A DNA stretch of 64,000 nt from Omphiscola glabra (lineage: Eukaryota > Mollusca > Gastropoda > Lymnaeidae): assembly GCA_964017045.1 (NCBI GenBank), contig OZ024807.1, positions 14,082,941 through 14,146,940 of the forward strand. The letters run 5' to 3'. A program made the position numbers and the translations under genes. Shown here one piece after another: positions 3,587 to 57,486 of the stretch. The notes under the pieces are model-generated. The model saw only the letters and a list, made by a program, of their open reading frames with translations. It was not told the origin of the DNA and ran no database searches. The first letter of the stretch is position 1. Each line of letters starts with the position of its first letter.

Positions 3587-6500
3587 ATGGCTCGAGTTAC
3601 GTCCCCTCTGTTCCTGCTGCTCAGCATAGCATTTGGCGTGTTGGCCGAGCAACAACTGCGCTTTGAAGGGTAAGTGTTGCCGTCTGCGTTTTGAAGGGTA
3701 AGTGTTGACGTCTGGGTTATAGCTAACGTACATTTTACTTTCCTTCACAGGCGATACAATTCAAATATGCTTTAAAAAATTTTTTGTAATCCAATTTAAA
3801 TGAATATAATATATGTTTATTAATATATACAGTTGTATACATAAAATCAGGGCCGTGGAGAGGATTTTTGGGCCCCAAGCATAGCTTCAATATTTTGAAA
3901 TGAATTGGGAAAAGTTTTCAAGGGAAGAGGTGCACCATAAGGGGTCCAATGAAAGGGGTGCAATGATAGGGGTGCAATGATAGGGGTGCAAGGAAAGGGG
4001 TGCAATGAAAGGGTTGCAAGGGAAAGGGGGCAAGGGAATGGTTGCAATGAAAGGGTTGGAAGGAGAGGGCTGCAATGAAAGGGGTTCAAAGAAAGAGGTG
4101 CAATCAAAGGTTTGCAATGACATGGGTGCAATGAAAAGAGTACAAGTCAATGGGTGCAATGAAAAGAGTACAAGTTATGGGTGCAATGAAAATAGTACAA
4201 GTCAATGGGTGCAATGAAAAGAGTACAAGTCAATGGTTGCAAAGAAAAGAGTACAAGAGGATGGGAGCAAGGAAAGGGGTGCAAGAAAAGGGGTCAATGG
4301 AAGAGGGTGCAAGCGAAGGGGTCAACGGAAGGGGGGCAACCGAAGGGGTCAACGGAAAGGGGTGCAAGAGAAGGGGTGCAAGAGAAGGGGTTAACGGAAG
4401 AGGGTGCAAGAGAAGGGGTCAACGGAAGGAGGTGAAAGAGAAGGGGTCAACGGAAGGGGGTGCAAGAGAAGGGGTCAACGGAAGGGAATGCAAGAGCAGG
4501 GGTAAACGGAAGAGGGTGCAATAGAAGGGGTCAACGGAAGGAGGTGCAAGAGAAGGGGTCAACGGAAAGGGGTGCAAGAGACGGGTTGAACGGAAGGGGG
4601 TGCAAGAGAAGGGGTTTATTCAAAATAAGATTAAAACAAAAACAATGGGGGTAAAAGATGTTTATTCAAATTGTATTGATGTAAAAGTTTCATGATTCTA
4701 ACTTATATTTGATAAGTTGTCTTTACAGCGAAGCAGTTCTTTTCTTCACCATCTCTTCTCCATGAGGATATTCTATTAATCGAGCCCCATTATTGAACTT
4801 CATAAATACTAAGTCAGCTTCATATCCACTTTGTTTACACATTTACAAAGGCGGCCATCCTTAACTGATATAATTTTAAAACGGATGCAACTGGCTCCCA
4901 CCCTTCTCGAATCCGACTTTGAAAATTAACTTAATCATAATGTTTTTTTAAAGACTTATTCATATTGTTTTTTTTAAATATTTAATCACACTATTTTTAA
5001 ATATATACACGCTGCCGAGGCCAATGTTAGCTCGAATAAAGGTCCTTACGTTGAAGGAGTAACTATTGTAATATTTATAATACGTTCAACACTTAGGCCT
5101 CTCACTCATTGAAAGTTGATGTCTTTACCTCCTCTCTGATATCAACTTTTGGCCTTGTTCTGCATGCCCCTCTCTAAATGAATCTCTCAATTTTCCCACA
5201 GCTATCAGCTTCTGGCAGTGTTCTCTAGAGACCACGAGGATGTGAAATTCCTTAACGATCTTGGCGAGACCTATGTTGATGTAAGTGAACCTGAATTATT
5301 AGACTTCCCCCCCCACTTTCCTGTATTACGATACATCATACATGTCGTTATGTTCATCTGACGACATATTGGGGGATTACCAACAATCTGTATCCTTAAA
5401 CCGGTATCGTTTACTGTATATTGCAGCTGGACTTCTGGAGAGACCCCGTCCCCCAACAAAACGCAACTGTTCTGGTGCCACCAACCCTGCTGGGTCCAGT
5501 GAAAACCAAATTGACCAGTCGCGGAATCACCTTTGTAATCATGTCTGATGACGTGCAGAGGTCAGTACTATAGCTACCGATTAAAGGGAGGAAACATCTT
5601 TTAGAGAAATTAAATAAAGGGAGAAAACCCCTATTAATTAAAGGTAGAGAATCTGAGAAATACGGAAATTAAATTAAAGGGAGAAAACACTTAAATTAAA
5701 AAAAATCATACATATATTTACACACACACACACATATATATATATATTTATAAATATAAACTGGATACCTTGCGTGCGAGAATATTTTTTTTTCTTTTTT
5801 TAAGGGACGTTTATTACGTCAGGTTCCATCATTCAGCATCACCACCTCCACAAACACAATTCTCAACCCACGCGAGACTCGCAGCACGTACATTATGTTT
5901 TAAAGAAAATGTAGCTTCTTAATTATATTACGAATTTCACACACGCTAAATTGGTCCCAGACTACTCTTAAACTAAGACCCATTCACTGTCTTACATTTT
6001 AAGTACGTGCTGAATCAGCAAAGAGAAATTTATCCGGAGTTATCAAATTAAAATAAGTTCCTCTGATTTAGATGTCATGTGGGAGAGATTTGGTAAACAT
6101 GTACTCACGAAGCCATCTTTAAAATCGGTTAAAAAAAAATATATATAACATGGTTGTAAACCAGGCCTGCAAAGCTCAAAATGTAAGACGGGCCGTAATA
6201 CTTTATGAAAAACTTGCGCGGGCAGAAAGAAAATAGGACAGGCGGAAAGCTATTAAAAAAAACATAATAATATTTCGTTTCTTCGCGGGCCGTATGTTGT
6301 GCATGCCTGGTCTAAACTGATACTTTTCAAACGCACAAAATACAATTTCAAAAGCATGCAATTGGGGGGGGGGGGGGGGGGGAAATTGATATTAAAAATA
6401 ATTTAATTCACAAATATATTTTATTCAGTGGTCATCAGCCAGGAGTTGGTTAAATAATTTGTTGATAATAAGTTTTTTAAAAAGTGCCATTTTCGCTTAG

Positions 6501-9500
6501 TTTTAACTTATTTATATCACATACCACACGGAAGTCAGCCTCAATTTGGAAACTTATCATGGAGAGGGCGTGGTTTAGCCAAGTGGTTAATTCAAATACT
6601 TGTAGTTTGTAGTACAGCGTAAAGCTTAAGTGACACTACATGGTACACATTTACAATCATTTACTATTCATTACGATCTAGCAAAAAGAAAACACATTTT
6701 GTTTTAAGGAGAATAGAGTAAAGATGGAATGCAAAAATACTGTTGGTAAGGTTCGGGGGTTAAAAAAAAAAAAAAAAAAAAAGGTCAATGTAAATTTTGG
6801 TTTCAGTATCGTGGACGCTGGCTCAGCCCGCACTCCCCAAGAGGAAGTGAACAGAAAACGTCAGATATCAAATGCCGTCATCGACCACTACAACTACCAC
6901 ACCTACAACACGGTATGTCCGCTCCACAGTTCTGGCCCAGAATGCGCTTGTTTCTAATGGGCGTGTCTGGTATCAGTGGCGTACCATTGGGAGGGGGGGG
7001 GGTTGGCTGGGAAGGGGTTTGTATTACATTATAAAAAAGACGTGTGTCTGTGATAATAATATGATCATTTTTAAATTTAAAAATTTATATTTTATTTTCA
7101 TCAGCATCACCTTCCTGCCATATAAAGGAAAAAAAATAGTTATCATTAAAAAAAAAATTAGCAATACTATAATTGTTTTTTCTCCAATCACAGATTCTCG
7201 GTTACCTCCAAGCACTGAAGAACAGATACACGAACAATGTTGAGCTGTCCAACCTTAACTACGTCACACACGAGGGCAGAGTTGTCGCCCTGGTCAAGGT
7301 AACGCCATTGCGGGTCATTCCATTCCATTAGATAAGAAGATCTGAGGTTAAGACTCGTGGCCAAGTGGAACTGTTGTCTGCCCCCGAGTTTGTAAAAAAA
7401 AAAGTAGGGGTGGGGGATGTCGCTCAATGTCGTAAAACAAATTAGCCTGACAGAACGCGGGAGAGTCAGTCGAGAAAGGGAATAATCTTTACCCCACAGC
7501 CACAGTTGTGGAATTATAGGGAAAATTGTGGAATTATAGGGAAAGTTGTAGCATTATGGGGAAAATTGGCTTGCTAAAGTCAGGAAGTCAGGAGAAGTTG
7601 GCTTTACTGGCTTTTACGGTTACTTTGACAATTGAATGCAACGTTTCGAGGTCAGTTACAGCTTCAGAATGATAAGCCATGATACAGAACGTCACCTTCC
7701 GACTGCATCTAAAATGGTAGCCATATTATAGATTAAAGGGGTGGGGGGTGGGTGACTTTTTAAAATAACAACTCTAGTGAAACAATTAATAAATTGTTGG
7801 GTGTTTTTTTCCACTCGAGTTGCGTATAAAGATAATGATTCCTTGTGTCAGTGGCACATTAAAACAATTGTCCTATTTCATCAACAGTTGGTTGGCAGAG
7901 CAAGTTCCGAGAAGAAGCCCGCCATCTTGGTTGAGGCAGGTATCCACGCCAGAGAGTGGGTCTCCCCGGCCGCCAACCTGTGGGCCATTGAGAAGGTGGG
8001 ACAAAATACATACTGCTTACGGAATCCTCTAAAACTGCCCGACTCAATCCTCTAACTACCTTATAACTTCTAACTATACCTTACTTAAACCTCTAACTAC
8101 CTTTCTTAATCCTTTAACTACCTTACTTAATCCCCTAACTACCTTACTTAATCCTCTAACTACCTTACTTAATCCTCTAACAATACTTACTTAATCCCCT
8201 AACTACCTTACTTAATCCTCTAACTATACTTACTTAATCCTCTAACCACCTTAATTAATCCCCTAACTACCTTACTTAATCCCCTAACTACCCATTCAAT
8301 CCTCTAACTACGTCATTCAATCCTCAAACTACTGCCTCAATCCACTAACATATAATACCTTACTAGATTCGCGTCGTTGCCTTCTTGTCACATTCCTCTG
8401 CCTGTGTAATGACATTTTAGCACGCGCTGTCACATCCTATTGAAATGCTCTTACTACGTTGTCGTGTACACTCTCCAGCTACTGTCCGACTACGCCAGCG
8501 GCGTCGCCACAGCTGTCCAAATCTTAGACAAGTATGATTGGTACTTCGTGCCGGTGGCCAACCCTGACGGTTATGAGTACACCCACACCACAGTAAGTTC
8601 TTAAACCAGTACCCAAAGTCACTAGACTAACGAGGTGATACAATCGGTTAACTCTAACACCTAAAAATATGTGTGGGGAGAAAATATTACGCACCAAACG
8701 CACTTGCGACTGTTTTTTTTTTTTATTTAGAGACTCTCGCTTAGCGCGCAGTTATCGGTAATCATCTGAAAATATTTTCATTATATTCGTATTGAAAAAC
8801 AGGAAAAACTCATTTATTGGGGGTTGGGGCTGAAAATTTGATAGAATGTGTTGTCATTGGCAACGAGTCTTTGTGCCAAATTTTAGCTCGATAGGTTGAG
8901 GGAAGTGGGTCAGCCAGCCATAAATAAAATCGAAATTAATGTAAAGGACCTAAAAAATGGAAGAATCGTATAAATGAGTGCAATTTTAAATCCTGAATGT
9001 CTTATGTTGTGTGTTCCTTAGAACCGTATGTGGAGAAAGAACAAACGCTACGTCAGTGCCAGGTGTACCGGTGTGGACCTCAACAGGAACTTTGACGCCA
9101 TGTGGGGAAGTAAGTCTCTCCTTGTAATCCAGTCCTAGCGGTTCAATAAGAAGTCACCCAATGAGTTTTGGGGCAGTCGTGATTACTAGTTTAACGCTCC
9201 CGAAACTTTTACGTTTTCTGTTTTTCTCCACCATGTATCACAGCGTCTGTGGTGCTAGGTTTACGCATCCCCACTAAATAGGGTTTGTCATCTCTTAGAC
9301 CGGAAACGTCACACATTACGTAATTTTAATATTTCAATACAATTTTTTCGTAAATATAGCTTCTAACAACGTATTTCCCCACATATATAGCAGTAACAAT
9401 TTGTTTATAAAATCTTTCGTAAAATAAAGTTGCACACACGTTTTAGTCTTGGTTTAGACACACTTTGCTGGATCACATTAAGGTAACATAGGAGTACCGT

Positions 9501-12100
9501 ACAGCTGTTGAGAGATTGGCCAAACGTAATACCAGGATGTTGAATTAATATCTTAATGAGATTGGCCAGACTTTACGCCCGGACAGATTTCCGACATTAA
9601 ATGACAAACCCAATTCCTCCCGAATCTTAAACACACGCCAACAAGGGGAAAACAGAACCATGAAGAAACAACCCTTAAATCTGTGTCCAATCCTTTTTCC
9701 CCAGCCACCGGCATCTCCAGGACGTGCTCCAGCGACATCTACCTGGGCGAGGCTCCCTTCTCCGAGCCAGAGACCGCCAACCTGAGGGATCTGTTTGAGA
9801 GTATCATCGGCGAGGTGGTCGCCTACTTGTCCGTGCACTCCTACTCACAGGTAACTGACGTGGGCGCACGCGGCCCGCATTGTTTATCCTTATGTCGGTC
9901 GTCAGAATGTAACGTTATTTAACAAATCCTGGTTTTATCGCAATTAATTCATCTCACTTTGGTGACTTCAATTCCCTTATCACAACATCTAAGTAAAAAC
10001 AAATCAAAAGGTTAAAAAAAAGGAATTGTAAACATGCAAATATGTTGTTTCTTCAAATGAAATGTGTAAAGACTCCCGTCATTTTTTTCAAGAAAAATTT
10101 AGTGAATTTAATATATTTACCTTTATGAGAACAGTTACAAAGAACTGAGAGGAGGAAGGCTAATTTTTTAACTGATTAAACTGAGCCAAATCACCGGGTT
10201 TGTGACTGAGACGCATGTTGGTCAAGTTCTCACGGAGAGAGCTGGTGGAGGCCAGGACAACTCACCAGTTGGTGCATTGCCCAGTTTTGTCTTATCAATA
10301 GCTTCTTTAGTCAGGGCTGCCTTTTCCAGAAATCTGTTGTCCAGAGCAGTGGCGTAGGTGCGGAGGGGCGGCCCTGTCCATGGCTGCAGGATTTTTTTAC
10401 AACAACCACTACAATATTTATTAAAATAATCGTTTAAAATATGCTCTTTCAGTTCCTCCTGGTCCCATGGGGTTACACCGAATATGTGTCCAGACCACCA
10501 AACGCTGCAGAGCTGGTCAGTGACTTTTACTGTTACACTTAAGTTAAACTTATTTACTAGAGCTGGGTCAATGTGTTTCGCTGTTGCACAACTTGTAGCT
10601 ATACACTTATTTATGCAAAGACATTTCAATTTCACACAATGTATACAGGCTTTCTAAACTTATATAGGTCTCAGAATATAATTCGCCCCCCTCCCCCATC
10701 TCTTCTCTACCACGACATATTTTTTTATTATTTTTAAAATCAGGACCGTGTGGCAACTAGGATGACCCAAGCCCTGATCGCGAGATTCGGCACTCAGTAC
10801 TACATGGGAACAGCATGGCAACTGCTCAACTGTAAGTAGCTGACAGACATGTCACCGCAGTAGAGAAGTAAATGGTGTGATCAGGGGCAGGGCAACCTAT
10901 GCGGCCGCAATGGGCCCCGCCCCGAATTTATTTTCGAATACGAAATCTTAATTTTCACGTATTATCCTTATCCTCCACCCAGAATGGGCCCCGCGCAATC
11001 CGTTTCACACAGGGCCCCGCAATTTTTAGGGTCGGCCCTGATCAGGGGTTCTCAAAGTTGAAAAAAATTATCCTTGACTCTAAGATGATAGGATTTTAAG
11101 AATTTTAATATATATATGTACATTTTTCGCAGAAGCTCAAGGAATTAATCTTTCCAAAATTAAAATAAGTGTACAAGTTTAATTAATACTACAATGCCTT
11201 ATAAAACTCTACAACCCAACCCACCCAAAATCCCTCGCTTCCTCCAGTTTCCAAAAGTATTTAGGGTGCTACGTGTTTGGCCATTGACTTCTCAGGTTGC
11301 CTTATTGTTTTTAGTTGTTTTTTTTTAAAGAGACTTAACATTTTGTCTACCAGGCTTCTCAATTTTCATTGAATGAATTTCCATCTGAACGACCGTTTCA
11401 ATTTACCCCAACCTTTCTGACTGATCATTTCAAGTTACAACAACCTCTCGGACTGACCGTTTCAATTTACCCCAACCTTTCTCACTGATCATTTCAATTT
11501 ACAACAACCTCTCGGACTGACCGTTTCAATTTACAACAACCTCTCGGACTGACCGTTTCAATTTACAACATCCTGTTGGACTGACCGTTTCAATTTACAA
11601 CAGCCCCTCGGACTGACGGTTTCAATTTACAACAACCTCTTGGACTGACCGTTTCAATTTACAACAACCTGTTAAACTGACCGTTTCAATTTACAACAAC
11701 CTGTTGGACTAACCGTTTTAATTTACAACAACCTCTTGGACTGACCGTTTCAATTTACAACAACCTGTTAAACTGACCGTTTCAATTTACAACAACCTGT
11801 TGGACTAACCGTTTTAATTTACAACAGCCTCTCGGACTGACCGTTTCAATTTCCTCTAACCTCCCTGACACACGGTTTCAATTTACCCTCACTAACTTCT
11901 CTGACACAGACGCAGCTAGCGGTGCCGCCGAGGACTGGGCGCTGTCCAGGAAGCCAGGTCTTTACGGCATGTGCTACGAACTCAGACCTGGGTACAATGA
12001 TAATCGTGGCTTCATTCTGCCAGCCAATGAAATCATCCCAACTGGCCAAGAATATTACGATAGTCTCGTAGTCTTGGCCAATGAAATGAGAGCTGTTTAA
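3587..12100 (+). CDS. Secreted M14A zinc carboxypeptidase precursor, isoform with terminal exon 12A (12 coding exons)
   Basis: Coding exons, all GT-AG and in phase: 3587-3669, 5202-5280, 5427-5560, 6807-6912, 7194-7298, 7888-7995, 8479-8592, 9022-9109, 9705-9850, 10453-10515, 10744-10831, 11910-12100. They total 1305 nt, or 434 aa, a normal length for a pro-carboxypeptidase A/B. Residues 1-20 form a signal peptide ([20 protein letters not shown]). Residues 21 to about 117 are the inhibitory activation peptide, ending near the basic site RKR at 115-117. The catalytic domain follows. Zinc ligands are His189 and Glu192 (HAREW) and His317 (VHSYSQ). Substrate binding uses Arg248 (MWRK), Asn264-Arg265 (DLNRNF) and Tyr372. 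The catalytic base is Glu395 (YELR). Cys258 and Cys280 match the conserved disulfide. The position equivalent to bovine CPA residue 255 is Glu379, an acidic pocket residue like the Asp of CPB, which suggests a preference for C-terminal Lys/Arg. By family, it trims C-terminal residues from peptides outside the cell, typically in digestion. The specificity is inferred. Confidence 0.95.
3920..4620. repeat. Degenerate minisatellite in carboxypeptidase intron 1
   Basis: About 45 copies of a 14-19 bp unit, first of GGGTGCAATGAAAG type and later of GGTGCAAGAGAAGGGGTCAA type. Just before it, CAGGGCCGTGGAGAGG (3849) resembles the left end of hAT-like elements. Confidence 0.85.
6162..6309. mobile_element. 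Short hAT-like MITE in carboxypeptidase intron 3
   Basis: The termini CAGGCCTGCA and TGCATGCCTG are near-inverted. They enclose 148 bp, with the shared GGGCCGTA motif near both ends in opposite orientation. Flanking 8-mers TTGTAAAC and GTCTAAAC match at 6 of 8 positions, fitting an aged hAT target duplication. It lies between exons 3 and 4. Confidence 0.5.
8041..8350. repeat. 20-bp minisatellite in carboxypeptidase intron 6
   Basis: About 15 degenerate copies of CTCTAACTACCTTACTTAAT. It ends about 130 bp before exon 7. Confidence 0.85.
11385..11890. repeat. 35-bp minisatellite abutting the exon 12A acceptor
   Basis: About 14 copies of a unit containing CTGACCGTTTCAATTTACAA. The final degenerate copies run into the polypyrimidine tract and AG of exon 12A. 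Confidence 0.9.
11910..12100 (+). CDS. Carboxypeptidase alternative terminal exon 12A (Glu at specificity position)
   Basis: This is the last exon of isoform A. It follows an AG acceptor at 11908-11909 and enters with a split codon (T from exon 11 plus AC). It encodes 63 residues with the substrate Tyr372, the pocket residue Glu379, the catalytic Glu395 and the C-terminal helix, then TAA at 12098-12100. Candidate AATAAA signals lie at 12199-12204 and 12312-12317. The acceptor sits at the very end of a minisatellite (about 11385-11890), and the last degenerate repeat units merge into the polypyrimidine tract. Confidence 0.9.
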
Positions 12101-12198
12101 GACATGCGCAAACAGATTTGAATCATTTTTTTGTTGTTGCTGTTTTCTTTCAAGAAGAGTTCTTCGAGTGTTTTTCAGCATTCGTTTAATATGGCTAA

Positions 12199-12317
12199 AA
12201 TAAATTAAGTAAGAAATCAGTTTGTATATGAACTGTTTTTAAAGGAAGCATTTAAAAAAACAACAATTCAGAATCAATCATGAATTGAATATTTTGTATT
12301 CAAGAACCAGAAATAAA
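12199..12317 (+). terminator. Polyadenylation signals after exon 12A
   Basis: AATAAA occurs at 12199-12204, about 100 bp after the exon 12A stop, and at 12312-12317. The second lies in a GAAATAAAAGTTAT context that reappears after exon 12B, so the 3' UTR was probably duplicated with the exon. Confidence 0.55.
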
Positions 12318-12600
12318 AGTTATTCCTCTTTTAAATGTACTTGTTTTCAACATTTCTTTTAAAATTATTTTTATTAACATGTTTTCGTTGAATACAATGC
12401 GGCACCCATTGAACTACATACATTTGACATACAAAGGACACATGGGAATAAACGCATCAAATTTTCACTATATCCGCTAAAAAGTCGAGGTATTCTTATT
12501 TGTGTCTGTGGTTATGTGAACATGAAAACCGAAAATGTTGTAAAATTTTACCAAAAAAATAAAATAAAAATGACCAACTTTCCCTGAATCGATTCTACAG

Positions 12601-12788
12601 ACGCTGCTTCTGGGTCTTCCAAAGATTATGCACTTCGTCGCAAGCCAAATCTCTACGCAATGGCATACGAACTTAGGCCTAGCGCGAGTAGCTCAATAGG
12701 ATTTAACCTTCCAGCCTCTCAAATAGTCCCCACAGGACAAGAGTACCACGATAGCCTGGTAGCTTTGGCTCAGGAAATTAGAGTTTGA
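12601..12788 (+). CDS. Carboxypeptidase alternative terminal exon 12B (Lys at specificity position)
   Basis: This is a second copy of the terminal exon, 500 bp after exon 12A. It has a clean acceptor (ATTCTACAG at 12592-12600), the same split-codon phase, an open frame and TGA at 12786-12788. Joined to exon 11 it gives a 433-aa protein. By my count about 39 of 62 aligned residues match exon 12A. Tyr372 and catalytic Glu395 are kept, but the position equivalent to CPA residue 255 is Lys379 instead of Glu379. Conserved residues often use different synonymous codons (for example the shared PTGQE and the Ser of YAASG), which points to old duplication under purifying selection. Separate AATAAA signals lie at 12872-12877 and 12972-12977. 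No other carboxypeptidase exons lie between or after the two, so I read it as a mutually exclusive 3' exon. A remnant of a duplicated gene is the alternative. Confidence 0.8.
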
Positions 12789-12871
12789 AGGTAGTAATAA
12801 AAAAAATGAAGTAATTATTTTGGCCAGTATCTAATGTGTTCGTCGGAATTAAATAATTTACATTTTTTGTA

Positions 12872-12977
12872 AATAAAGGAAAGAACGACCTGAGCCACAA
12901 AAAGTATTTAGAATAAAAAAAAGTCTATTTTGGACAAAAATACACGTGCAATACATGTTTAAAAAGACGAAAATAAA
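12872..12977 (+). terminator. Polyadenylation signals after exon 12B
   Basis: AATAAA occurs at 12872-12877 and 12972-12977 downstream of the exon 12B stop. The second shares the AAATAAAAGTTAT context with the signal after exon 12A. Each terminal exon therefore appears able to end its own transcript. Confidence 0.55.
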
Positions 12978-13054
12978 AGTTATATAATATTCTTGAATTC
13001 GTGTTTGATTTGTAAATTCTCATTAGCGTAATACATATTCAAAATGTTAAGATA

Positions 13055-13496: not shown

Positions 13497-15025
13497 TTGG
13501 GCATAAGAGCGGCCCATGGCATGGTGATATAGTGTTGTAACAAGAGCGACCCATGGCATGGTGATATAGTGTTGTAACAAGAGCGACCCATGGCATGGTG
13601 ATATAGTGTTGTAACAAGGGCGACCCATGGCATGGTGATCTAGTGTTGTAACAAGAGCGACCCATGGCATGGTGATATAGTGTTGTAACAAGAGCGACAC
13701 ATGGCATGGTGATATAGTGTTGTAACAAGAGCGACCCATGGCATGGTGATATAGTGTTTTAACAAGGGCGACCCATGGCATGGTTATATAGTGTTGTAAC
13801 AAGAGCGACCCATGGCATGGTGATATAGTGTTGTAACAAGAGCGACCCATGGCATGGTGATATAGTGTTGTAACAAGGGCGACCCATGGCATGGTGATAT
13901 AGTGTTGTAACAAGAGCGACCCATGGCATGGTGATATAGTGTTGTAACAAGAGCGACCCATGGTATGGTGATATAGTGTTGTAACAAGAGCGACCTATGA
14001 CATGGTGATATAGTGTTGTAACAAGAGCGACCCATGGCATGGTGATATAGTGTTGTAACAAGAGCGACCCATGGCATGGTGATATAGTGTTGTAACAAGG
14101 GCGACCCATGGCATGGTGATATAGATATAGTGTTGTAACAAGAGCGACCCTAGGCATGGTGATATAGTGTTGTAACAAGAGCGACCCATGGCATGGTGAT
14201 ATAGTGTTGTAACAAGGACGACCCATGGCATGGTGATATAGATATAGTGTTGTAACAAGAGCGACCCATGGCATGGTGATATAGTGTTGTAACAAGAGCG
14301 ACCCATGGCATGGTGATATAGTGTTGTAACAAGAGCGACCCATGGCATGGTGATATAGTTTTGTAACAAGGGCGACCCATGGCATGGTGATCTAGTGTTG
14401 TAACAAGAGCGACCCATGGCATGGTGATATAGTGTTGTAACAAGAGCGACACATGGCATGGTGATATAGTGTTGTAACAAGAGCGACACATGGCATGGTG
14501 ATATAGTGTTGTAACAAGAGCGACCCATGGCATGGTGATATAGTGTTGTAACAAGAGCGACCCATGGCATGGTGATATAGTGTTGTAACAAGAGCGACCC
14601 ATGGCATGGTGATATAGTGTTGTAACAAGAGCGACCCATGGCATGGTGATATAGTGTTGTAACAAGGGCGACCCATGGCATGGTGATATAGATATAGTGT
14701 TGTAACAAGAGCGACCCATGGCATGGTGATATAGTGTTGTAACAAGAGCGACCCATGGCATGGTGATATAGTGTTGTAACAAGGACGACCAATGGCATGG
14801 TGATATAGATATAGTGTTGTAACAAGAGCGACCCATGGCATGGTGATATAGTGTTGTAACAAGAGCGACCCATGGCATGGTGATATAGTGTTGTAACAAG
14901 GGCGACCCATGGCATGGTGATATAGATATAGTGTTGTAACAAGAGCGACCCATGGCATGGTGATATAGTGTTGTAACAAGAGCGACCCATGGCATGATGA
15001 TATAGTGTTGTAACAAGAGCGACCC
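13497..15025. repeat. 37-bp satellite array, about 41 copies
   Basis: The unit contains GTTGTAACAAGAGCGACCCA and TGGCATGGTGATATA. Because 37 is not a multiple of 3, all three frames interleave and give long false proteins. A 6-bp GATATA insertion recurs about every three units (near 14120, 14238, 14685, 14802 and 14919), forming a 117-bp higher-order repeat. Confidence 0.95.
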
Positions 15026-25342: not shown

Positions 25343-45101
<19,759 letters not shown>

Positions 45102-53310: not shown

Positions 53311-53649
53311 ACTCTATTTGGCTGTAGGGTGCACACGCCATCGTTTCGTACCTACTCATGACTAACTGGCTGGATAGTGGTCATATTTATTTTTATTAAT
53401 TTTACTGAAGTGTTCAAAGTCAGGCTGTTAAACACTCCCCCCCCCCTTTTTTTTCTCCCCCTATATCACGTTTAGCACGTCTTATCCATATCATCAGCTC
53501 CAATTTGTTTGGAAATCTGTTAGGTAAATACGGCTCATAGAAGGGGATATTCATGGCAGCCGCGACGTCATGCCAGCCAATTCACCAAGAATAGAGGCAA
53601 ACACCAGAGGCGGCGAGGCGCTGTTCAATTAACACGGCAAATTATATAC

Positions 53650-56600
53650 ACTCCAACCCTGTGAGATACATTCCAACCTTGTGAGATACATTCCAACCCT
53701 GTGAGATACACCCCAACCCTGTGAGATACATTCCAACCCTGTGAGATACATTCCAACCCTCTGAGATACATTCCAACCTTGTGAGATACATTCCAACCTT
53801 GTGAGATACATTCCAACCTTGTGAGATACATTCCAACCCTGTGAGATACATTCCAACCCTGTGAGATACACCCCAACCCTGTGAGATACATTCCAACCTT
53901 GTGAGATACATTCCAACCTTGTGAGATACATTCCAACCCTGTGAGATACATTCCAACCTTGTGAGATACATTCCAACCCTGTGAGATACATTCCAACCTT
54001 GTGAGATACATTCCAACCTTGTGAGATACATTCCAACCCTGTGAGATACATTCCAACCTTGTGAGATACATTCCAACCCTGTGAGATACATTCCAACCCT
54101 GTGAGATACATTCCAACCTTGTGAGATACATTCCAACCCTGTGAGATACATTCCAACCCTGTGAGATACATTCCAACCCTGTGAGATACATTCCAAACCT
54201 GTGAGATACATTCCAACCCCGTGAGATACATTCCAACCCCATGAGATACACCCCAACCCTGTGAGATACATTCCAACCCTGTGAGATACATTCCAACCTT
54301 GTGAGATACATTCCAACCCTGTGTGATACATTCCAACCCCGTGAGATACATTCCAACCTTGTGAGATACATTCCAACCCTGTGAGATACATTCCAACCCT
54401 GTGAGATACATTCCAACCCTGTGAGATACATTCCAACCCTGTGAGATACATTCCAACCCTGTGAGATACATTCCAACCCTGTGAGATACATTCCAACCCC
54501 GTGAGATACATTCCAACCTTGTGAGATACATTCCAACCTTGTGAGATACATTCCAATCCTGTGAGATACACCCCAACCCTGTGAGATACATTCCAACCCT
54601 GTGAGATACATTCCAACCCTGTGAGATACATTCCAACCCTGTGAGATACATTCCAACCCTGTGAGATACATTCCAACCTTGTGAGATACATTCCAACCCT
54701 GTGAGATACATTCCAACCCTGTGATATATCCTCCAACCCTGTGAGATATATTCCAACCCTGTGAGATACATTCCAACCCTGTGAGATACATTCCAACCCT
54801 GTGAGATACATTCCAACCCTGTGAGATACATTCCAACCCTGTGAGATACATTCCAACCCTGTGAGATACATTCCAACCCTGTGAGATATATTCCAACCTT
54901 GTGAGATACATTCCAACCCTGTGAGATACATTCTAACCTTGTGAGATACATTCCAACCTTGTGAGATACATTCCAACCCTGTGAGATACATTCCAACCTT
55001 GTGAGATACATTCCAACCCTGTGAGATACATTCCAACCTTGTGAGATACATTCCAACCTTGTGAGATACATTCCAACCCTGTGAGATACATTCCAACCTT
55101 GTGAGATACATTCCAACCCTGTGAGATACATTCCAACCTTGTGAGATACATTCCAACCTTGTGAGATACATTCCAACCCTGTGAGATACATTCCAACCTT
55201 GTGAGATACATTCCAACCCCGTGAGATACATTCCAACCCTGTGAGATACATTCCAACCCTCTGAGATACATTCCAACCTTGTGAGATATATTCCAACCTT
55301 GTGAGATACATTCCAACCCTCTGAGATACATTCCAACCTTGTGAGATATATTCCAACCCTGTGAGATACATTCCAACCCTGTGAGATACATTCCAACCCT
55401 GTGAGATACATTCCAACCTTGTGAGATATATTCCAACCCTGTGAGATACATTCCAACCCTGTGAGATACATTCCAACCCCGTGAGATACATTCCAACCAT
55501 GTGAGATACATTCCAACCCTCTGAGATACATTCCAACCCTGTGAGATACATTCCAACCTTGTGAGATACATTCCAACCCTGTGAGATACATTCCAGCCCT
55601 GTGAGATACATTCCAGCCCTGTGAGATACATTCCAACCCTGTGAGATACACCCCAACCCTGTGAGATACATTCCAGCCCTGTGAGATACATTCCAACCCT
55701 GTGAGATACACCCCAACCCTGTGAGATACATTCCAGCCCTGTGAGATACATTCCAACCCTGTGAGATACACCCCAACCCTGTGAGATACATTCCAGCCCT
55801 GTGAGATACATTCCAACCCTGTGAGATACACCCCAACCCTGTGAGATACATTCCAACCCTGTGAGATACATTCCAACCCTGTGAGATACATTCCAACCCT
55901 GTGAGATACATTCCAACCCTGTGAGATACATTCCAACCCTGTGAGATACACCCCAACCCTGTGAGATACATTCCAACCCTGTGAGATACATTCCAACCCT
56001 GTGAGATACATTCCAACCCTGTGAGATACATTCCAGCCCTGTGAGATACATTCGTACCCTGTGAGATACATTCCAACCCTGTGAGATACATTCCAACCCT
56101 GTGAGATACATTCCAACCCTGTGAGATACATTCCACCCCTGTGAGATACATTCCAACCCTTTGAGATGCATTCCAGCCCTGTGAGATACATTCCAGCCCT
56201 GTGAGATACATTCCAACCCTGTGAGATACATTCCAACCCTGTGAGATACATTCCAACCCTGTGAGATACATTCCAACCCTGTGAGATACATTCCAGCCCT
56301 GTGAGATACATTCCAGCCCTGTGAGATACATTCCAGCCCTGTGAGATACATTCCAACCCTGAGAGATACATTCCAACCCTGTGAGATACACCCCAACCCT
56401 GTGAGATACATTCCAACCCTGTGAGATACATTCCAGCCCTGTGAGATACATTCCAGCCCTGTGAGATACATTCCAACCCTGTGAGATACATTCCAACCCT
56501 TTGAGATACATTCCATCCCTGTGAGATACATTCCAACCCCGTGAGATACATTCCAACCCTGTGACCTACATTCCAACCCCGTGAGATACATTCCAACCCC

Positions 56601-57053
56601 GTGAGATACATTCCAACCCCGTGAGATACATTCCAACCCCGTGAGATACATTCCAACCCCGTGAGATACATTCCAACCCTGTGACCTACATTCCAACCCC
56701 TTGAGATACATTCCAACCCTGTGACCTACATTCCAACCCCGTGAGATACATTCCAACCCTGTGACCTACATTCCAACCCTGTGACCTACATTCCAACCCC
56801 GTGAGATACATTCCAACCCTGTGAGATACATTCCAACCCTGTGACCTACATTCCAACCCTGTGAGATACATTCCAACCCTGTGACCTACATTCCAACCCT
56901 GTGAGATACATTCCAACCCTGTGACCTACATTCCAACCCCGTGAGATACATTCCAACCCTGTGACCTACATTCCAACCCCGTGAGATACATTCCAACCCC
57001 GTGAGATACATTCCAACCCTGTGACCTACATTCCAACCCCGTGAGATACATTC
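53650..57053. repeat. 3.4-kb satellite of about 170 20-bp units
   Basis: The unit is GTGAGATACATTCCAACCCT. The period is almost perfectly fixed at 20 bp. Three 20-bp units make 60 bp, or 20 codons, which opens frames of up to 1024 codons on the minus strand; these are artefacts. Variants are zoned: CCTT-ending units to about 55560, a 60-bp higher-order repeat with CCCCAACCCT and TTCCAGCCCT units at 55600-55850, and alternating GTGACCTACA units from 56560. Confidence 0.97.
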
Positions 57054-57486
57054 CAGCTAAAAATATAACATTTAGTATTATTTTACAGATACATTTTGTA
57101 AAAAATAAACGTTGAAATCTAAAGAAAGTAACATATCCATTCAGATACGAATACATCTGTATGACTATGGTTACGAGGCTTGGGGCTATTTAATAACAGT
57201 ATTTTATTGTATAAAACGCTGAAGAAAAGAGATAACTCGGCCGGAAACAGGGCAGACTTAATTTAGTAGTCACAACATATTCAAACAATGAAAACATTAC
57301 AAAAAACAAAGAAGAACATAAATGACACTGTAATAATACCAGTTGTAACATGCAAGGTAAACTTGGATCAAAGCAACAACAACAACAAAAAAAAACCAAA
57401 AAAAAAAAAAAAAAAAATGGCAGAAAACCTTGTAAACACTTGAGAGAGAAAAGTTATCCGGAAAATATATCAGGATCACAGGCTAG

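Follow-up and report, generated by a model that had tools for sequence, protein, structure and literature searches.

A snail procarboxypeptidase gene with two candidate last exons that differ in the charge of the specificity residue

In carboxypeptidases, residue 255 of the S1' pocket (numbering of carboxypeptidase A, CPA) differs between enzymes of different preference: Leu or Val in CPA, Asp in carboxypeptidase B (CPB) and Arg in carboxypeptidase O (CPO) go with aliphatic or aromatic, basic and acidic C-terminal residues, respectively (PMC9925722). In CPBHz, a digestive CPB of the insect Helicoverpa zea (PDB 2c1c), a natural Glu255 accompanies Lys specificity, and in Aedes CPB1 an Asp-to-Glu replacement abolished Arg cleavage and retained Lys cleavage, unless Gly also took the place of Ser at the 243-equivalent (PMC8605224). 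Human CPO (PDB 5mrv) cuts Glu, Asp and certain polar residues and has no prodomain (PMC6214572). Here, we describe a procarboxypeptidase gene of the snail Omphiscola glabra (contig OZ024807.1, positions 14,082,941 to 14,146,940; this whole stretch of 64,000 nucleotides is called the window) whose eleven shared exons are followed by two candidate last exons, 12A with Glu and 12B with Lys at position 255. In our reading, to which we give a probability of roughly 0.56, this single gene would make two zymogens through last-exon choice, and the two-ended gene would predate the split from Physella, where it was then duplicated.

Exon choice of this kind has precedents. The insect PpSerpin-1 uses alternative C-terminal exons as proposed here, but is a protease inhibitor with 21 C-terminal forms found in transcriptome data, and among insect serpins C-terminal splicing is negatively correlated with gene duplication across species (PMC10513286). 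The coq-2a/coq-2e pair is another case in which exon choice alters the substrate of an enzyme, although coq-2 is a prenyltransferase and was tested in C. elegans (PMC7434440). Alteration of specificity by an alternative last exon is thus already known for serpins, as is alteration of a substrate by exon choice for coq-2. The alternative exons of coq-2 are reportedly internal. Among the titles listed in the open-access literature, we found no report of exon choice in a carboxypeptidase.

One gene body followed by two last exons

The segment 3587-12788 on the forward strand reads, as a spliced open reading frame, as a single intact and complete snail gene for a digestive-type procarboxypeptidase of subfamily M14A, with the following features (a slash marks a splice junction):

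3587..3669, plus strand: exon 1, start codon and signal-peptide-like start, the latter judged from sequence alone (spliced open reading frame)
5202..5280, plus strand: exon 2, activation peptide (Propep_M14, PF02244, residues 34-103)
5427..5560, plus strand: exon 3, activation peptide (Pfam)
6807..6912, plus strand: exon 4, end of the propeptide and linker into the catalytic domain (Pfam)
7194..7298, plus strand: exon 5, catalytic domain (Pfam)
7888..7995, plus strand: exon 6, zinc ligands His189 and Glu192 (CPA His69 and Glu72)
8479..8592, plus strand: exon 7, catalytic domain (Pfam)
9022..9109, plus strand: exon 8, Arg248, Asn264 and Arg265 (CPA Arg127, Asn144 and Arg145)
9705..9850, plus strand: exon 9, zinc ligand His317 (CPA His196)
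10453..10515, plus strand: exon 10 (spliced open reading frame)
10744..10831, plus strand: exon 11, the final shared exon, phase 1, donor gtaagt at 10832 (CTCAACT/gtaagt), Ala366 aligned with CPA 243
11910..12100, plus strand: alternative last exon 12A, Ala377-Ala378, Glu379 (CPA 255), Cys393, catalytic Glu395, stop TAA
12199..12323, plus strand: candidate polyadenylation signals of 12A, AATAAA at 12199 and 12312, shared 13-mer at 12311
12601..12788, plus strand: alternative last exon 12B, Ser377-Ser378, Lys379 (CPA 255), Ala393, catalytic Glu395, stop TGA
12796..12983, plus strand: candidate polyadenylation signals of 12B, AATAAA at 12796, 12872, 12912 and 12972, shared 13-mer at 12971

Over exons 1-11 (3587-10831) all donors are GT, the acceptors of exons 2-11 are AG and the frame stays open. 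The product has the features of M14A: an N-terminal inhibitory propeptide, a Peptidase_M14 domain (PF00246) scoring almost equally with either ending (266.0 and 266.1 bits), the three zinc ligands and, in both isoforms, Arg248, Asn264, Arg265, Tyr372 and Glu395, the last two matching Tyr248 and Glu270 of CPA. The closest proteins are from snails (Bulinus, Physella, Biomphalaria, Bradybaena and Candidula), with a top identity of 70% among the best 120 of 3977. Searching the 64 kb window with either protein by tblastn gave no further match with E below 1 and a few chance-level ones at E 1-10; an additional ending or another copy of the gene within it was rejected on this result.

A sequence-only reading of the locus had proposed that both exons accept the same splice phase, have clean acceptors and intact stops, and keep the Tyr248- and Glu270-equivalents, and all of this holds. 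Both acceptors (ctgacacag/AC at 11910, gattctacag/AC at 12601) follow the phase 1 end of exon 11, and because both exons start with AC, either splice yields T/AC, the codon of Tyr372. Each acceptor has 14 pyrimidines in 20 positions, where those of exons 2-11 have 11-16, and the spliced frames encode 434 residues with 12A and 433 with 12B, of which the ending makes up 62-63. Separate polyadenylation signals had been proposed as well: AATAAA does follow both stops, at frequencies moderately above chance (P 0.004 to 0.06 by stretch). Five copies lie in 12101-12600, against a shuffle mean of 1.1 (P 0.004), but the part closer to the 12A stop, 12101-12360, has just two (mean 0.4, P 0.06); 12789-13040 has four (mean 1.3, P 0.046). 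Both 3' flanks have in common a 13-base word containing AATAAA, AAATAAAAGTTAT, 211 and 183 bases past the stops of 12A and 12B, and a shared word of at least this length arose in 18 of 1000 shuffles. One donor, two acceptors in the same phase and a stop with a candidate polyadenylation signal for each make up the structure of alternative last exons.

A 32-base tandem array (11384-11886) occupies the end of intron 11 to 23 bases before 12A and could influence splice choice or differ among individuals. Homology of intron 11 to the spacer before 12B was considered and rejected, nothing being found beyond short AT-rich words.

The two exons diverge like coding sequence. Of 62 aligned residues, 40 are identical (39 when MAFFT is used for the alignment), the 12A protein recovers the 12B stretch by tblastn at E 2e-20, and their 69 nucleotide differences are distributed 18/14/37 over codon positions 1, 2 and 3. 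The proportion of synonymous differences (pS) is 0.71 and that of nonsynonymous ones (pN) 0.26, with a bootstrap 95% range of 0.27-0.63 for pS-pN; neither of the other two reading frames shows a comparable pS excess. The use of different synonymous codons for many shared residues, which had suggested selection on both copies, was confirmed for 22 of the 40.

Bodies and endings among related snails

The occurrence of the same exon pair in related species had been named as a check, and the pair does recur in Physella acuta, there in two separate genes. Of two carboxypeptidase B-like proteins of this species, P0003 (P numbers denote our homologues) has the motif GAAEDW with Glu255, as in 12A, and P0004 has GSSKDW with Lys255, as in 12B; Lys255 is found in Physella P0013 too. 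P0003 and P0004 are 87% identical over exons 1-11 and 52% over the last exon, and they appear as separate proteins whose contigs differ in size (596,556 versus 227,265), not as one two-ended gene. The 12A ending is identical to P0003 at 48 of 62 positions and to P0004 at 31 of 63, and 12B to P0004 at 41 of 62 and to P0003 at 32 of 62.

Trees of bodies and of last exons were built with 20 rows each from 27 aligned rows (P0005, P0029, P0032, P0037, P0038 and P0039 were omitted; the body set also lacked 12B, and the last-exon set P0011; P0013 is without most of exon 7), and the two trees conflict. The body tree unites P0003, P0004 and P0013 in one clade (support 100), whereas in the last-exon tree P0003 joins 12A and Biomphalaria P0006, and P0004 and P0013 join 12B. 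By the approximately unbiased (AU) test, with Shimodaira-Hasegawa (SH) values in brackets, 12A and 12B as sisters were rejected at p 0.03 (0.08), the Physella last exons as a single clade at 0.03 (0.10) and the last exons of P0003 and P0004 as sisters at 0.01 (0.03). Three body trees following the exon classes were rejected by the AU test at 2.5e-5 and below, as was a body clade of the window gene with Physella and planorbid B-type proteins, at 0.04. Retained were P0004 with P0013 as sisters (0.19), the window gene with Physella (0.35), with planorbid A-type proteins (0.08) or with both (0.43), and planorbid A and B types as one clade (0.36). Class-diagnostic sites number 12, 4 and 0 for the three possible last-exon groupings, and pocket convergence alone fails to explain the grouping, since 8 of the 12 lie outside pocket positions 377-379 and 393. 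A recent exon duplication within the gene was rejected as the origin of 12A and 12B on the sister test and the 12:4:0 sites, over about 63 sites, and the two look like members of two separate older exon classes.

With one body and two old endings here, and two similar bodies with the same endings in Physella, the simplest reading is an ancestral two-ended gene that was duplicated in Physella, each copy now having one ending. The alternative is gene conversion of the bodies in Physella. Searches with the last exons alone returned 3 and 7 proteins, all already among the whole-protein matches. The listed Bulinus truncatus protein P0011 combines an A-type-like body with the terminus LLNCE, as would result from reading on past the donor of exon 11; with its last exon missed in this way, gene models of relatives may conceal endings.

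Several observations weigh against a gene that uses both endings. The endings of Physella lie in separate genes, so alternative splicing is not required there; the key groups of the last-exon tree have modest bootstrap values (64-77, about 63 sites), and the SH values are weaker than those of the AU test. No transcript of the same species occurs among the best 120 of 3977 matches, the most similar of which reaches 70%. G or C at third codon positions (GC3) falls from 253/371 in exons 1-11 to 33/63 in 12A and 24/62 in 12B, and the codons of 12B are chosen no better than if synonymous codons were drawn at random (P 0.25, versus 0.017 for 12A), which fits a minor, weakly expressed isoform or a relic exon. 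Tajima counts (12A:12B) shift with the outgroup (6:7, 1:8, 6:1 and 4:11).

In the main rival explanation, which the codon choice and low GC3 of 12B would also suit, 12B would be what is left of an adjoining tandem B-type gene after loss of its exons 1-11: a last exon that is intact by recency and barely or not spliced. A- and B-type genes are separate in Physella and Biomphalaria, and several seem to share one contig in Bulinus and Biomphalaria, judging from equal contig sizes; 12A does not group with 12B as its sister, and the spacer shows no homology to intron 11, as if 12B had brought its own upstream flank. However, tblastn found no trace of another exon in 12101-12600, and 12B retains an open frame, its acceptor, the catalytic Glu and the residues of its class. 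A young relic would be intact as well, half of the copies simulated with 0.1 neutral substitutions per site being stop-free; with 0.2, 27% are stop-free and 23% keep Tyr372, Asp380 and Glu395, with indels not counted. The terminal branches of 12B (0.140) and 12A (0.129) are similar, and Physella too pairs both endings with closely similar bodies. We consider a relic exon unlikely.

The specificity residue and the predicted products

In alignments with solved structures (CPA1, A2 and A4 for the 12A product), residue 379 falls at the S1' specificity position, CPA 255, with no gap between Tyr248 and 255, and the same holds for 12B; the proposed exchange of Glu379 for Lys379 is thereby borne out, as are the neighbouring differences listed above. 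The two endings differ across the S1' floor (CPA positions 253, 254, 255 and 268), and Trp257 is replaced by Tyr in 12B. Lys at 255 is rare: it occurs in 3 of the 118 homologues with a residue there (2 of the best 120 of 3977 have none). HaCA42 is reported to have Lys255.

Neither ending has the Asp255 of vertebrate-type CPB. The Glu255 that 12A has in common with CPBHz suggests a Lys-preferring product and not a general CPB-like one, an amendment to the basic preference proposed in the sequence-only reading. CPBHz differs in having Ser243, where Ala366 aligns here (a one-residue insertion lies nearby, yet neither flanking residue, Thr365 or Trp367, is Ser), and the excerpts of PMC8605224 describe no alternative ending for it. 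By analogy with Arg255 of CPO, for which Lys is a conservative replacement, the 12B product is predicted to prefer acidic C-termini, although CPO, unlike the snail protein, is without a prodomain (PMC6214572). Confidence in the structure models of P0003 and P0004 is high throughout the last exon, with block means of 93-98 up to the last one or two residues, and the model of P0004 shows a normal procarboxypeptidase fold.

Both exons might also be spliced and Lys379 still not confer an acidic preference, the 12B product taking polar or small residues or serving as a decoy of weak or no activity. Among B-like last exons position 255 changes readily (Lys, Thr, Ile, Ala or Pro), the aromatic at 257 is changed, and a further determinant of the pocket is position 243 (PMC8605224), which is aligned with Ala here. 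In planorbid B-class proteins residue 255 is Thr or Ile; the class as a whole is then not acidic, the acidic preference has to be argued from the Lys itself, and this counts against that half of our reading. On the other side, the catalytic residues are retained, Lys255 is kept in both P0004 and P0013, and in alignment human CPO shows Ser-Ser-Arg-Asp in the place of the Ser-Ser-Lys-Asp that P0004 shares with 12B. Splicing of both exons with a 12B product of this other kind appears to us quite improbable.

In the two-zymogen reading, exons 1-11 would supply the propeptide, most of the catalytic domain, the zinc site, Arg127 and Arg145 to both products. Use of the near 12A acceptor and its polyadenylation site would give the Glu255 enzyme, a partner of trypsin preferring C-terminal Lys; if 12A is skipped and transcription continues, exon 11 would join 12B and give the CPO-like Lys255 enzyme preferring acidic C-termini.

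Surroundings and significance

The region is rich in repeats (a 37-base array starts at 13505, in addition to the one ending at 11886) and similar genes seem clustered in relatives, as would suit a collapse of tandem A and B genes with similar bodies into one during assembly, but such an artefact is very improbable because 12A, the 500-base AT-rich spacer and 12B are continuous and clean, with no exon fragments between them and only short AT-rich words shared by spacer and intron 11, and collapse of the bodies alone would presumably not put 12B directly after the 12A 3' untranslated region.

Many tandem arrays lie in 13052-63105 (56 rows across the whole window, some overlapping), the largest of which, at 53646-57055, repeats a 20-base unit about 170 times. 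Pieces at 26269-30570 on the plus strand read like a gene that we take, from its motifs, to be that of cystathionine beta-synthase: the Pfam family PALP (pyridoxal-phosphate enzyme) matches above cut-off at 28233-28523 and below it at 30367-30567, and two other pieces have no Pfam match. Two related fragments, at 37167-37967 (minus strand) and 43304-43636 (plus strand), have no Pfam match and look like the end of the reverse transcriptase of a non-LTR (long terminal repeat) retrotransposon.

The earlier proposal of a basic- and an acidic-preferring enzyme from one gene is partly supported and plausible, and is strengthened by Physella. More tentatively, at somewhat less than even odds, a lineage-conserved splicing switch may reverse the pocket charge, one gene making Lys- and Glu/Asp-preferring forms that became two genes in Physella, with the last exon as an exchangeable specificity cassette. 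The diversity of tastes among digestive carboxypeptidases is known to arise by gene duplication; here, a single gene may achieve it through exon choice. Since Physella holds the gene-duplicate version with matching residues, the exchange between splicing and duplication is directly testable, and 12A and 12B would offer a natural two-state swap of the S1' pocket on a fixed enzyme body.
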